The notes under the pieces are model-generated. The model searched no databases, had not been told where the DNA came from, and saw only the letters and a program-made list of their open reading frames with translations. A DNA stretch of 37,203 bases, taken from contig QHWJ01000172.1 of NCBI GenBank assembly GCA_003222535.1, positions 1 to 37,203 of the forward strand, in the 5' to 3' direction. The stretch comes from Acidobacteriota bacterium (GTDB lineage Bacteria > Acidobacteriota > Vicinamibacteria > Vicinamibacterales > CAVVIG01). The position numbers and the translations under genes were made by a program. Every line of letters starts with the position of its first letter. Position 1 is the first letter of the stretch. This document shows, piece by piece, positions 6,284 to 17,965 of the stretch.

Positions 6284-7729
6284 ATGTCGAACGACGGTCT
6301 GCCACGAGTTCTTGGGCTTTTCAGCCTGCTGCCGGCCGCGCTTCTCGCTGCGACCGCGGGCCCAACCGCACAGGCGCCCGCGTCAACTTCCGGTGAAGTG
6401 ACATTCACCAGGGATATTGCGCCCATCCTCCAGCGGAGCTGTCAGGAGTGCCATCACGCGGACGGCGTCGCGCCGATGTCGCTCGTGACGTATGACGAAG
6501 TGAGACCCTGGGCCAGGGCCATGAAGACGCGGACCGCCCTTCGGAGCCAGAGAGGCGCGATGCCGCCGTTCTTCGTCGAGAGGAACATCGGGATCCAGAA
6601 ATTCAAGCACGACCCCTCTCTCAGTGAAGAGGAGATCGCCAGGATTGCGAAATGGGCCGACAGTGGCGCGCCTCGAGGCAACCCGGCCGACATGCCTCCG
6701 CTCCGTCAGTTCGACAGCACCGACAAATGGACGATCGGTGAACCGGATCTGGTCCTGCGGTCGAAGGACGTCACGGTCCCTGCTGTCGGGCCCGACAGGT
6801 GGGGAGACTTCGGGCTCGTGCCGACGGGTCTCACAGAGGACCGGTACGTCTCAGCCGTCGAGGTCAGAGAGGTCAACGACATTCCGAGGGGTGGCGCGAC
6901 CAGCACGGTCGGCGGACGGTACGCGTTTCACCACATGACGTATTCCAGTGTGGTTCAGGGCGAGCGTGCGTCCAACGGCGCCGACGAAGGCGGCAGCAGC
7001 TGGCCCATTCACGAAGTCGGGCGCAACGCGGATATCTTTCCGCCCGAGGCTGGCAGGCTCCTGGCTGCGAATTCGGCCCTGGCTCTGACCGCGGGCCATG
7101 TCCACTCGAACGGCCGGGAGACCACCGGGCATCTTGAATTCGCGTTCAAGTTCTTTCCAAGAGGATACAAGCCGATCTACCGCCGGTCAGCCCTGCGTCT
7201 GGGCAATGGCATCGACATCGATGTGAGGCCGAATCAAGGCAATCAGGAGCTCCATGCGTATGCCACGCTGCAGGAGCACACCAAATACATCACCTTCGAG
7301 CCCCACCTGCACGCGCCGGGCGTGCGCATGTGCCTCGAGGCGATCTGGGGCCACAACATTCAGACGCTCAACTGCGTGGGATACGACCACAACTGGGTGA
7401 AGCAATACGTATACGACGACGATGCGGCGCCGCTCTTGCCGAAGGGGACCATCGTGCACCTCATTGGTTTCCTCGACACCACTCCCGCCAACAAGAATCC
7501 GGCGGACCCGAGAAACTGGGCTGGAGGCGGCCGGCGGTCGGTCGCCAACATGTTCATCGATCTTGGCTACTCGGTGTCGCTCACCGAAGAACAGTTTCAG
7601 GCCGAGATGGCCAGACGACGCAAGAACCTGAAGAGCAGGAACGACTTCGATATCGGGTGTCCGCTGTGCTGGGCCCCTCCGCTGCAGCAGCAGACGCAGC
7701 CGACTACGGCAGCGGCAGGAAAGCAGTAA
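6284..7729 (+). CDS. Secreted cytochrome c / copper type II monooxygenase-like protein
   Basis: 481 residues; the start has an excellent GAGGAGGT five bases upstream. A signal peptide (residues 1-30) is followed by a mono-heme cytochrome c-like segment with C53-x2-C56-H57 (CQECH) and a methionine-rich stretch that could supply the sixth ligand. The C-terminal 300 residues resemble the copper type II ascorbate-dependent monooxygenase (PHM/DBH) fold: paired H216-H217 (AFHHMTY), H272 and H274 (GHVHSNG), H341 and H343 (PHLHAPG) and M349. PHM enzymes use HH/H for one copper and HxH/Met for the other, so two copper sites are plausible. Expected location is the periplasm, with the heme as a possible electron entry. 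Substrate unknown. It is coupled to the next gene by a TAATG overlap. Confidence 0.8.
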   Translation: MSNDGLPRVLGLFSLLPAALLAATAGPTAQAPASTSGEVTFTRDIAPILQRSCQECHHADGVAPMSLVTYDEVRPWARAMKTRTALRSQRGAMPPFFVERNIGIQKFKHDPSLSEEEIARIAKWADSGAPRGNPADMPPLRQFDSTDKWTIGEPDLVLRSKDVTVPAVGPDRWGDFGLVPTGLTEDRYVSAVEVREVNDIPRGGATSTVGGRYAFHHMTYSSVVQGERASNGADEGGSSWPIHEVGRNADIFPPEAGRLLAANSALALTAGHVHSNGRETTGHLEFAFKFFPRGYKPIYRRSALRLGNGIDIDVRPNQGNQELHAYATLQEHTKYITFEPHLHAPGVRMCLEAIWGHNIQTLNCVGYDHNWVKQYVYDDDAAPLLPKGTIVHLIGFLDTTPANKNPADPRNWAGGGRRSVANMFIDLGYSVSLTEEQFQAEMARRRKNLKSRNDFDIGCPLCWAPPLQQQTQPTTAAAGKQ

Positions 7730-8667
7730 TGCCAGGGGCGCGGCTGTTGCTCGCCCCCCTGGCAGCTCTCCTGTTGTTCCAATCTGCCAGCGCCCAGACC
7801 AGATTCACTTACTCGAGCGGCCAGGTCGTGTCGCCGGCATACGAGGGGTGGCGGCCCAACGAGGATGGATCGTTCACGATGTTGTTCGGGTACATGAACC
7901 AGAACTGGCAGCAGGAGCTCGACGTTCCGATTGGACCCGACAACAACATCGAGCCGGGAGGGCCCGATCAGGGGCAGCCGACGCATTTTTATCCCCGACG
8001 CAACCCGTTCCTGTTCATGATCCGCGTGCCGAAGGATCTCGGCAGCAAGGAGCTGATCTGGACCCTCACGACGAACGGGAAGACGGAGCACGCCTACGCG
8101 TCACTCAAAAACGATTACATGATCGACAACCAGGTGATCTCCACTGAAGTGGGCGGGGACGGCGGCAGCCTCCGCGACGAGCTTCGCACGAACCTTCCCC
8201 CGGAGCTCAAAGTCGAAGGGGACGCGCACCGGAGCGTCAAGGTGGGAGAAGCGCTGACGTTGATCGCGTTTGCAAAGGATCCCGACAACATACCGGCCAG
8301 GCGAGACGGAAGAGGTGCTTCGAGCGCGGCACCGCCAAACGCCGCGGCCGTCGCAAACCTCCTGTATCGGCCTCCCTCATCGCTCGTCCCCGCAAGCGGA
8401 CCGGGCCTGCGGCTGTCATGGATCGTCTACCGGGGCAAGGCCGCAACGGTGACCTTCAGCCCCGACCAGATGAAGACGTGGACCGACACGCGGGCGTACG
8501 CGAACTCTCCGTGGTCGCCTCCGTACTTCATCCCTGAGCCGCCTCCAGACAACAAATGGGTGGTTCAGGCGACCTTCCAGGAACCGGGAACCTATGTGCT
8601 CCGTGCCGTTGCCAGTGACGGCGCCTTGTTCACGTACGACAACGTGACGGTCAGCGTCACGCGCTGA
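7729..8667 (+). CDS. Secreted beta-rich partner of the copper/heme protein, function unknown
   Basis: The ATG at 7729 overlaps the TAA of the monooxygenase gene by one base (TAATG), so translation is coupled. The product has 312 residues: a signal peptide (residues 1-23, ending SASAQ) and a soluble, strand-rich body with no cysteines to speak of and many Trp, Tyr and Pro. Near the middle the motif RNPFLFMIRVPKDLGSKELIW, and at the end EPGTYVLRAVASDGALFTYDNV, suggest immunoglobulin-like or cadherin-like sandwich domains; the last 60 residues look like a PKD/Ig strand set. I do not recognise a family. Coupling and co-export suggest it binds or supports the copper/heme protein, which is inference. 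Confidence 0.75.
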   Translation: MPGARLLLAPLAALLLFQSASAQTRFTYSSGQVVSPAYEGWRPNEDGSFTMLFGYMNQNWQQELDVPIGPDNNIEPGGPDQGQPTHFYPRRNPFLFMIRVPKDLGSKELIWTLTTNGKTEHAYASLKNDYMIDNQVISTEVGGDGGSLRDELRTNLPPELKVEGDAHRSVKVGEALTLIAFAKDPDNIPARRDGRGASSAAPPNAAAVANLLYRPPSSLVPASGPGLRLSWIVYRGKAATVTFSPDQMKTWTDTRAYANSPWSPPYFIPEPPPDNKWVVQATFQEPGTYVLRAVASDGALFTYDNVTVSVTR

Positions 8668-15005: not shown

Positions 15006-16421
15006 GTGACAGCGACGGATCTCGTCGATCGGCTCGCGGGGCACAAGACCGTCGGCGCGGCGCCGCGCGAGGAGCTCCTGTGGCTGGTCTCGCACGGGTC
15101 CCTTCGACATCTCAACGAGGGAGAGGTGCTGAGCGCGAAAGGCGTGCCGGTGGCGGGCCTCTTCGTCGTGCTGACGGGCCATATCGCCATTTTTGTCGAT
15201 CGTGGCGCCGGGCGGCACAAAGTGCTGGAGTGGCGCGCCGGGGACGTCGCGGGCATGCTCCCCTACTCCCGCCTGGTCAGTCCCCCTGGCGACTCGGTCG
15301 CCCAGGAGCCCTCGGAGATTCTCGCCGTCCCTCGCGGCGACCTCGCCGTGATGATTCGCGACTGCCATGAGATCACGTCGATCCTCGTCCACAAGATGGT
15401 CGATCGCGCCCGGGTCTTCACGTCGAGCGGCCTGCACGACGAGAAGATGGTCTCGCTCGGGAAGCTGTCCGCCGGACTGGCCCACGAGCTGAACAACCCG
15501 GCCTCCGCGATCGAACGAAGCGCGGCGCTCCTCGAGGAGCGCCTGAACGAGGCCGAACAGGCCGCGCGCGCGCTGGGCGCCTCGAGACTGACAGACCTTC
15601 AGCTCGCCGCGATCGATGCGGTGCGTGCGTCCTGCCTCGCCGCGCCTGTGCGGAGCGTGCTGTCTCCGATCCAGCAGGCCGAGCGCGAGGACGCCATCGC
15701 CGACTGGCTCACCGATCACGGCCTCGACGCCGGCATTGCGGGACCGCTTGCCGAAACTGCCGTGACGCTCGACGCACTCGACCGGATTGCCGAGGCGGTC
15801 GGCGGACCGCCGCTCGACGCGGCCCTCCGGTGGACAGCCGCCGGCTGTTCGGTCCGCGGCATCGCCTCGGAGATTCAGGAAGCCGCGATGCGGATCTCCG
15901 GCCTCGTCATGGCCATCAAGGGATTCACGCACATGGACCAGGCCACGGTGGCGGAGCCCGTGGACCTGACGTTGAGCCTGGGCAACACCGTCACCGTGCT
16001 CAAATCCAAGGCGCGGGCGAAATCGGTCGCCGTCGAGGTGACCGTGGAACCCGGCCTCCCGCGCGTCCGCGGCTTCGGCGGCGAGCTCAACCAGATCTGG
16101 GCGAATCTGATCGACAACGCGCTCGATGCCGTTCCTGACTCCGGTCGGGTCGAGGTGACCGCGAACCGTGAGCGGCAGCGCGTCGTGGTTCGCGTCGTCG
16201 ACAACGGGGCGGGCATTCCACCCGAGATCCGCGAGCGCCTGTTCGAACCGTTCTTCACCACCAAGCCGGTCGGGAAAGGCACCGGCCTGGGCCTCGATAT
16301 CGTGCGGCGCCTGGTCAGCCACAACGACGCCGAGATCGAGGTCGAGACGGCTCCCGGGCGAACAGAGTTTCGGGTCTCCCTTCCGCTCGCCGAGATCGAT
16401 GGAGCCGGCGGATCACGGTGA
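15006..16421 (+). CDS. Cyclic-nucleotide-binding-domain histidine kinase
   Basis: 471 residues, soluble, GTG start with AGGGAG upstream. Residues about 8-135 form a cNMP-binding/Crp-like beta-barrel (LNEGEVLSAKGVPVAGLFVVLTG...). Then comes the dimerisation helix with the phosphoacceptor H160 in LAHELNNPASAIERS, a long helical insert (170-290), and a HATPase_c domain with the N-box NQIWANLIDNALDA near 354-367, the G1 box DNGAGI, the F-box EPFFTTK and the G2 box GTGLGL. All kinase motifs are intact. The stop overlaps the start of the next gene (GTGA), so this kinase and the receiver/thioredoxin-reductase fusion form one operon. Ligand of the sensor domain is unknown; a classical phosphate-binding-cassette arginine is not obvious. 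Confidence 0.88.
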   Translation: MTATDLVDRLAGHKTVGAAPREELLWLVSHGSLRHLNEGEVLSAKGVPVAGLFVVLTGHIAIFVDRGAGRHKVLEWRAGDVAGMLPYSRLVSPPGDSVAQEPSEILAVPRGDLAVMIRDCHEITSILVHKMVDRARVFTSSGLHDEKMVSLGKLSAGLAHELNNPASAIERSAALLEERLNEAEQAARALGASRLTDLQLAAIDAVRASCLAAPVRSVLSPIQQAEREDAIADWLTDHGLDAGIAGPLAETAVTLDALDRIAEAVGGPPLDAALRWTAAGCSVRGIASEIQEAAMRISGLVMAIKGFTHMDQATVAEPVDLTLSLGNTVTVLKSKARAKSVAVEVTVEPGLPRVRGFGGELNQIWANLIDNALDAVPDSGRVEVTANRERQRVVVRVVDNGAGIPPEIRERLFEPFFTTKPVGKGTGLGLDIVRRLVSHNDAEIEVETAPGRTEFRVSLPLAEIDGAGGSR

Positions 16422-17965
16422 ACAAGCCCGTACTTCTTGTCGTTGACGACGATGCGCAGGTGCTCGCGGCGGTGCGCCGCGATCTCCGCGCGCGGTACCG
16501 TGAGTCCTACACGATCGTCAGCGCGTCCTCGGGCGAAGAGGCGCTCGCCACCATCCGCGAACTCAAGGCGCGAGGCGACTCGCTGGCCATCGTGATCAGC
16601 GACCAGCGGATGCCGGGCATCCAGGGGACCGACGTGCTCGCGCAGTCCCGCGACGTGTATCCGCTGGAACGCCTCTTCCCGGTAGTCGACGATCTGCTCG
16701 ACGACTGGCAGGCCGAGTATCTCCCCGAGGCGAAGGGACTGAGGCTGGTCGGACACCAGTGGTCGCCTCGATCGCACGAGATCAAAGACTTCCTCGCCGG
16801 CAATCTCATCCCCTATCGCTGGCTCGATGTGGCGCGGAACCCGGACACGCGAAGCCTGCTGGACGCTGCCGGGATTGGCGCCGGCGAGCTTCCCGCGCTG
16901 TTCTTCGAGGATGGGTCCGCGCTGCGCAACCCCGAGCCACGTCAAGTGGCCGAACGCCTCGGTCGATCGCTTTCGGCCACCCACGATCTGTACGACCTTG
17001 TGATTGTGGGCGCCGGTCCCTCGGGCCTCGGGGCGGCGGTGTACGGCGCATCAGAGGGGTTGCGGACCTTGCTGCTCGATCGGCACGCGCCCGGCGGGCA
17101 GGCGGGCAGCAGTGCCAGAATCGAGAATTATCTCGGGTTTCCAGCCGGGGTCACCGGCAGCGAACTGACGCGGCGCGCCGTGACGCAGGCGCAGCGCCTT
17201 GGCGCGGAGTTCCTCGTGCCGCTCGAAGTGACCGGGGTGTCCATCGACGCGGGATACAAGCACCTGACGCTCAGCGACGGCCGGGAGATCCTCACGCGGA
17301 CCATGCTGGCCGCGACCGGCATGGAGTACCGCGAGCATCCTGCGCCGGGCGTGGCGGCCCACACGGGCGCGGGGGTGTATTACGGGACGGCGACGACGGA
17401 GGCGCCGGCGTTCAGCGACCGGCGTGTTCTCGTGATCGGCGGCGGGAACTCGGCCGGACAAGCGGCCATGTATCTGGCGCGCTACGCGAAGGACGTGCAG
17501 ATCGTGGTGCGCCGCGAGTCCCTGCGCGACACCATGTCGCAGTACCTCGTCGATCAGATCGAAAAGACCGCGAACATCCGGCTCCGGGCCCGGACGGAGG
17601 TCGAACGTGTCGAAGGAAGCGGCCACGTGGAACGTGTCGCGCTCAAGCTGGACGACGCAAGTCAGGTGGAGGATGTCGACGCGGTGTTCGTGTTCATCGG
17701 CACCAGGCCGCGAAGCGACTGGCTCCCCGCCGGCGTGCTGCGCGATCCGAAGGGGTTCGTGCTCACCGGCCGGGACCTGTTCACGGACGGCGCGTACGCG
17801 CGCACCTGGAAGGAGCCGCGCGAGCCGCTGCCCCTCGAAACCAGCGTGGCGGGCGTGTTCGCGGCTGGCGATATCCGCGCCGGCGCGATGAACCGGGTGG
17901 CGTCAGCCGTCGGCGAGGGATCGATGGCGGTGCGGTTCGTTCACGAATACCTGGCGCTGACCTGA
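16418..17965 (+). CDS. Fused receiver / thioredoxin-reductase-like FAD oxidoreductase with shortened receiver
   Basis: 515 residues. Residues 1-82 are the first part of a receiver: acidic D10-D12 (VVDDD) and phosphoacceptor D62 (SDQRMPG). The text then jumps at about residue 82 (DVYP) straight to [16 protein letters not shown], which in related proteins follows only after the switch Thr and the conserved Lys (LLTAYAD... LKPWDPPEE). Those 35-40 residues are missing. Residues 105-190 are a thioredoxin-like segment, and residues 192-510 a class II flavoprotein: FAD site [18 protein letters not shown](P)H site [18 protein letters not shown] and the terminal FAD motif [23 protein letters not shown]. 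The redox CxxC of true thioredoxin reductases is replaced (GTATTEA), as usual in this fused family. It is the expected partner of the preceding kinase. Confidence 0.88.

Follow-up and report, generated by a model that had tools for sequence, protein, structure and literature searches.

A 36-residue in-frame loss from the receiver domain of a kinase-associated REC-TrxB-type flavoenzyme in an Acidobacteriota genome

In a stretch of 37,203 nucleotides from an Acidobacteriota bacterium (contig QHWJ01000172.1, positions 1 to 37,203; this whole stretch is called the window here), a gene for a sensor histidine kinase is followed by a gene for a response-regulator-type fusion enzyme (Table 1). The latter is an uninterrupted reading frame over its full length and encodes an N-terminal receiver part, a linker domain and a flavoprotein core resembling thioredoxin reductase (TrxR). 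The kinase stop and the enzyme start share four base pairs, which suggests translational coupling of the two genes. In comparison to the closest orthologues, 36 residues (108 bp, in frame) are absent between Leu83 and Glu84 of the enzyme. This sequence change, an in-frame loss from the receiver, is confirmed.

Table 1. Positions of the features discussed (window coordinates, except for the last line)
Feature	Position	Strand	Basis or remark
Sensor histidine kinase, 471 aa; cNMP (cyclic nucleotide)-binding-like domain, phosphoacceptor helix, HATPase_c	15006..16421	+	Pfam
Enzyme: receiver remnant, glutaredoxin-like domain, TrxR-like flavoprotein	16418..17965	+	515 aa, GTG start
GTGA overlap of kinase stop and enzyme start, 4 bp	16418..16421	+	sequence
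Receiver remnant, residues 1-83: beta1-alpha1-beta2-alpha2-beta3-(short) alpha3; D10-D12 and D62	16418..16666	+	
Deletion junction CTG/GAA; 108 bp / 36 residues gone; GG microhomology	16664..16669	+	
Retained alpha5-like helix, residues 89-100, linking receiver to next domain	16682..16717	+	
Glutaredoxin/thioredoxin-fold-like linker domain (putative), residues 106-181, cysteine-free	16733..16960	+	AlphaFold2 element order
TrxR-like FAD/NAD(P)H core, residues 190-515	16985..17965	+	Pfam Pyr_redox_2 6.3e-38
Enzyme of genome G304, receiver lost, core conserved	3695-4999 of L172 (G304:C14:33000-42000)	-	

The absent segment corresponds to residues 84-119 of the full-length relative L005. The join lies at 16666/16667, where residues 81-88 now read YPLERLFP, and its position is ambiguous by 2 bp because GG is shared by both flanks (CCGCTGG before the gap in L005 on the left; GAGGAACG in L004 and L005 on the right). 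No repeat longer than this GG was seen at the join. Pfam Response_reg reflects the loss: the window protein covers positions 2-63 of the 111 of the profile with 32.0 bits, L005 positions 2-104 with 64.5 bits. The acidic pocket (D10-D12) and the phosphoacceptor Asp62, within SDQRMPG at nt 16598-16618, are kept, the switch Thr of beta4 and the conserved Lys of beta5 are both absent, and the N-terminal receiver is incomplete. The original prediction, made from the sequence of the window, had placed an in-frame loss of the C-terminal half of the receiver here and estimated it at 35-40 residues or 105-120 bases including the switch Thr and the Lys; the alignment with L005 bears this out. No close copy of the missing piece was found elsewhere in the assembly of the window, the best match having an E-value of 0.0097 (47% identity over query residues 9-47 of 56), and the assembly holds no close second copy of the gene. 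Another gap, of two residues after about position 413, reflects ordinary variation in length.

For the comparison with relatives, 90 sequences were aligned, namely the window protein, nine relatives from family, order and class searches and 80 from a wider contig scan; the latter are the best 80 of 572 confirmed candidates, so that the sample is not a neutral one. The receiver-less L034 (from genome G160), the cNMP-type relatives and the distant L017, L028, L029 and L031 were omitted. All 89 aligned receiver-bearing relatives have a segment of 36 residues, which in the window has length zero. Asp62 is present in 90 of 90 sequences, and T90, A91, Y92, D94, N103, K113, P114, W115 and P117, which include the switch Thr and the Lys, are each found in 89 of 89 relatives. 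Also the four distant proteins outside the alignment retain the segment (36, 36, 36 and 39 residues), with the Lys in four of four and the Thr in three, L031 having Val. A subfamily in which close relatives all have the short form, which the original prediction had named as one of the findings that would refute it, was looked for and is ruled out, as none of the 89 is short. Since all of them keep all 36 positions, the deletion is, judged from these sequences, a lineage-specific loss.

The closest orthologues in the family, order and class searches (from G011, G023, G097, G029, G041 and G021) are 73-84% identical to the window protein and 553 residues long; over all nine relatives, identity ranges from 48 to 84%. 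G366 and G441 likewise carry the whole segment. In a phylum sample of 396 genomes, with three candidates scored per genome, 51 matches at E <= 1e-120 were obtained in 49 genomes, and 48 of these are full length, starting no later than residue 3 and extending at least to residue 551. The three exceptions come from the window, G304 and G491; the last was dropped as a case of receiver loss, since a run of N lies immediately upstream of the matching region. When 32 additional loci, including the window, were checked for the motif, the pattern was present in 28 of the 31 loci other than the window, and the three unmatched ones (L124, L149 and L168 from G171, G348 and G465) aligned end to end.

A contig chimera inside the gene is not suggested, as kinase and reductase are both nearest to L004/L005. 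The remnant shows 16 non-synonymous differences to L032 vs. 18 to L004, and the protein tree pairs the window with L032 (support 0.768) whereas the nucleotide tree pairs it with L004/L005 (0.993). Faster evolution of the L004/L005 receivers would account for this conflict.

In receivers, the Thr and Lys that are lost here read and bind the phosphoryl group, and beta4, alpha4 and beta5 define the two signalling states of the domain. The AlphaFold2 model of the window protein contains beta1-beta3 and a short alpha3 and neither beta4 nor beta5, so that three strands are predicted in place of a (beta-alpha)5 fold. Confidence (pLDDT, in block averages) is 46-61 over residues 71-110, including the alpha5-like helix, whose sequence is nevertheless conserved among relatives; it is high again from residue 111, with a dip at about 231-250. 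The model of the full-length relative L109, which heads an alignment of 41 proteins, has five receiver strands (beta4 83-88, alpha4 93-103, beta5 107-110) and values of 83-95 over residues 1-120 with one block at 73. The alignment given to AlphaFold2 consists mostly of intact receivers and may flatter the remnant of the window. According to the models, the missing piece is beta4-alpha4-beta5, two of the five core strands with the intervening helix, and what remains should not form a normal receiver. Since these elements are removed, the domain would be broken rather than frozen. In the degenerate or pseudo-receivers of atypical response regulators, active-site residues are lost and the fold as a whole is retained. 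The window protein resembles those of the BldM/WhiI type in that neither would be phosphorylated normally, whereas it keeps Asp62 and loses fold elements.

Selective constraint was assessed by codon models in a simple implementation of our own (GY94-like, F3x4). In the joint fits the window branch carries 1.4 to 2.1 neutral changes per codon, and because synonymous distances are large, all omega values given here are rough. The remnant (82 codons) fitted alone gave an omega of 0.031 on the window branch vs. 0.083 elsewhere (2dlnL, twice the log-likelihood difference, 1.71). With branch lengths shared with the reductase, the values are 0.069 vs. 0.078 for seven taxa, and for nine taxa 0.095 vs. 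0.070. In none of these three codon fits was a significant relaxation or acceleration of the remnant seen, and the 95% bound for the unconstrained fraction of the window branch is about 0.09 with seven taxa and 0.11 with nine. The reductase part deviates in the relaxed direction, although not significantly (0.103 vs. 0.067, 2dlnL 1.95). Since the remnant is not significantly relaxed, the deletion would be recent on its branch, unless the stub remains under constraint or the gap is an artefact. No further lesions were seen in the enzyme or the kinase gene of the window.

The partner kinase looks intact in its sequence as well. Pfam reports HATPase_c (5.7e-26), cNMP_binding (3.6e-9) and, below its curated cut-off, HisKA (0.004). 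LAHELNNPAS at nt 15477, an N box at nt 16104, DNGAGIP at nt 16200 and GKGTGLGL at nt 16272 are what we take to be the kinase motifs. The protein is colinear with its orthologues, and its omega is 0.075 on the window branch vs. 0.078 elsewhere. The rest of the enzyme looks intact too, in agreement with the earlier view of both proteins. The association of the two genes is common in the family: a same-strand kinase match (E <= 1e-8) lies at 11 of 12 loci of class-level relatives, and among the best 80 of the 572 candidates a kinase match was found at 70 loci, 67 of them on the same strand and three on the opposite one. Some of these kinases lie downstream or at a distance rather than directly adjacent. 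The cNMP-binding-like domain of the window kinase (15006-15400) contains a GDVxGxLPYSR...PPG stretch. This stretch presumably sits where cAMP-binding proteins carry the phosphate-binding cassette, and the domain may bind a different ligand.

The combination of a receiver with a TrxR-like output domain is a recognised class of response regulators, REC-TrxB, known from two papers (PMC9739842, PMC5847659), one of which calls it 'Mycobacterium-like' (PMC5847659). SCO7297/SCO7298 of Streptomyces coelicolor are listed as a pair in the former (PMC9739842), and, according to two further papers, SCO7298 transcripts rise with sulfane sulfur and acid shock (PMC9952706, PMC2631018). The SCO7298 type resembles the window locus in having a receiver fused to a TrxR-like flavoprotein and a gene beside a histidine kinase. 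This likeness is at class level and does not imply orthology to SCO7298, and the window protein differs from the class in that the second half of the receiver core is absent. It is thus a descendant of the REC-TrxB family, with the TrxR-like output domain and the adjacent kinase of that family, and no full member if a complete receiver is demanded. In the literature searched, the class is named and no study on a receiver-truncated member was recognised, though one may exist.

The assignment to a fused receiver/thioredoxin-reductase family in the original prediction stands, whereas the enzyme name is doubtful. The Pyr_redox_2 match spans residues 192-501, and the FAD/NAD(P)H core is like that of bacterial NADPH TrxR and AhpF: the best fold matches of the window model are AhpF (4xvg) and TrxR (4gcm), and the best sequence match in the PDB to the profile of the relatives is 7jyp (E 1.5e-64). 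The score against TIGR01292, however, is 216.6 and lies under the cut-off of 343.45, and the CxxC of the TrxR active site is replaced by other residues (nt 17372-17401 in the window). The first Cys of the YCAAC/YCAIC motif of solved TrxRs aligns with Gly359, a Gly in 90 of 90 sequences, and none of the 90 has a Cys at position 362. In place of CxxC stands a GxxYGxxxxE stretch, of which G355, Y358, G359 and E364 are fixed in all 90.

Cysteine is entirely missing from the window protein. That the family lacks any conserved cysteine would be too strong a statement, given that 65 of 90 sequences carry a Cys at position 368 in L005 numbering. No column of the linker domain has Cys in more than nine of the 90. 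CxxC motifs occur elsewhere in L088, L095 and L122 (L005 positions 426, 329 and 426) and none at the TrxR active site. With the redox CxxC missing from all 90 sequences, the name 'thioredoxin reductase' is doubtful, and the enzyme would be expected to use an acceptor or a chemistry other than that of TrxR. The linker domain follows the element order E109-112 H117-128 E134-137 H143-151 E160-162 E168-170 H174-180 in the AlphaFold2 model, from which a glutaredoxin/thioredoxin-like fold is predicted. A second reductase of the same genome, L002 (G000:C148:73485-77178), is 45% identical and receiver-free, and its N-terminus resembles what we take to be a cNMP-binding domain. Because of this, the reductase core seems to be combined with differing regulatory domains.

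Loss of the receiver was also found in related genomes. In G304 (L172), the homology to G260 of the same genus starts at about residue 120, so that the whole receiver is gone, and continues through both the enzyme and the kinase, which is kept downstream. The dN/dS is 0.074 (NG86) or 0.057 (YN00) for the reductase core and 0.123 (NG86) or 0.110 (YN00) for the kinase, and neither contains a premature stop. A receiver-free core beside a kinase is thus conserved in at least one other lineage, leaving aside the share of this constraint that postdates the loss. A GGAGAGG stretch lies shortly upstream of a possible TTG start in L172. A class search of 193 genomes gave 13 matches at E <= 1e-115, namely the window, eleven with a receiver and G160 without one. 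In G160 (L034/L136), the reductase core is an open frame of 417 codons beginning with GTG; no receiver homology was found upstream of about residue 128, nor was a kinase of this type at E <= 1e-40 found in this genome. Its genus-mate G161 carries a homologous pair on contig C60 (L141, C60:10000-26000, at about 6490-8590 on the - strand) in which both genes are broken. In the kinase, the match divides near residue 74, where the frame changes; the enzyme lacks residues of about 23-341 and retains about 22 N-terminal residues and the portion beginning at about residue 342. Another, more distant pair on contig C8 of G161 is whole.

Taken together, we regard it as probable that a fairly recent and real in-frame deletion of 108 bp removed beta4-alpha4-beta5 and decoupled the flavoenzyme from its kinase. 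In this case, the receiver would no longer fold normally or usefully accept phosphate, and the remnant would be a loosely folded N-terminal stub, while the helix, the glutaredoxin-like domain and the flavoprotein core would work free of the control of the adjacent kinase. Such an enzyme may be permanently on, permanently off or merely unregulated; 'on' as the default state is slightly favoured because G304 keeps its core constrained without a receiver. Several points weigh against this reading. The deletion has been seen once, as the relatives searched include no genome of the same genus. The normal constraint on the remnant is equally expected from an assembly artefact. Furthermore, the losses in G304 and G160 came from searches requiring a good reductase match, so that lesions destroying the reductase are under-counted, and the boundary common to these cases is partly a matter of ascertainment because such searches favour lesions sparing the reductase. 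The G161 pair, which was found via the kinase, is broken in both genes and favours plain decay there.

The same G161 pair, with the receiver-less and kinase-less G160 and the patchy occurrence of the enzyme (11 of the 162 genomes of the order at E <= 1e-120, that of the window included), would fit early pseudogenisation, in which the deletion would be the first lesion of a module that has become dispensable, its protein being inactive or misfolded. Nevertheless, neither gene of the window carries a further lesion and the relaxation on the window branch is not significant in reductase or kinase, and we consider this explanation unlikely. That 108 bp were merely dropped in assembly or sequencing and the receiver of the organism is ordinary appears less likely still: it would agree with a remnant constrained as in a whole gene and with a single assembly (8.06 Mb in 450 contigs, 95.5% complete), but an error by repeat collapse is improbable because no repeat longer than 2 bp is present at the join. 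A microhomology of 2 bp would rather suit a deletion; the frame is kept, the missing piece lies on no other contig, and receiver loss is known from other genomes (G160, G304).

The original prediction had suggested a possibly selected change that could fix the receiver in a single signalling state, with the kinase still active. The kept frame, Asp62 and alpha5 sequence as well as the intact, normally constrained kinase could be read in this way. We consider such a lock very improbable, since in the models the very elements that define the two states, beta4, alpha4 and beta5, are missing, leaving a broken domain, and since point changes at Asp62, Thr90 or Lys113 would be the more likely route to a lock. 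No sign of adaptive change was seen in the remnant, and a remnant that is neither significantly relaxed nor accelerated says nothing for selection, so that the claim of a selected change is unsupported as well. Also, a preserved frame is expected in one third of random deletions, and a lineage needing the reductase would filter for it.

The decoupling by deletion may be part of a wider pattern. The receiver-less enzymes of G304 and G160 share the glutaredoxin-like and flavoprotein core with the window protein, and their receiver losses extend to the start of alpha5 or into it, to about residue 120 in G304 and 128 in G160. There the entire receiver is gone, whereas the window protein still has residues 1-83 in frame. 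Tentatively, and with considerable doubt, this could be a repeated 'release' of a kinase-controlled flavoenzyme, in which three lineages of one phylum lose or break the receiver at or just before alpha5 with the core left open. The window would then show the most recent of these events, with the first half of the receiver still in place; two of the three lineages retain the kinase, which would serve another partner or be a relic, and the core that is released would be a flavoprotein without the TrxR dithiol.

If the deletion is real, the locus is a natural experiment in which an enzyme is freed from its two-component control although the kinase is still present, and G304 offers at least one clean parallel. 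In the literature found, little exists on the REC-TrxB flavoenzyme beyond naming and expression data, and the absence of CxxC across the 90-sequence sample means that the name 'thioredoxin reductase' is not trustworthy for the family. A comparison of the short with the full protein would reveal the effect of the receiver on a widespread flavoenzyme.

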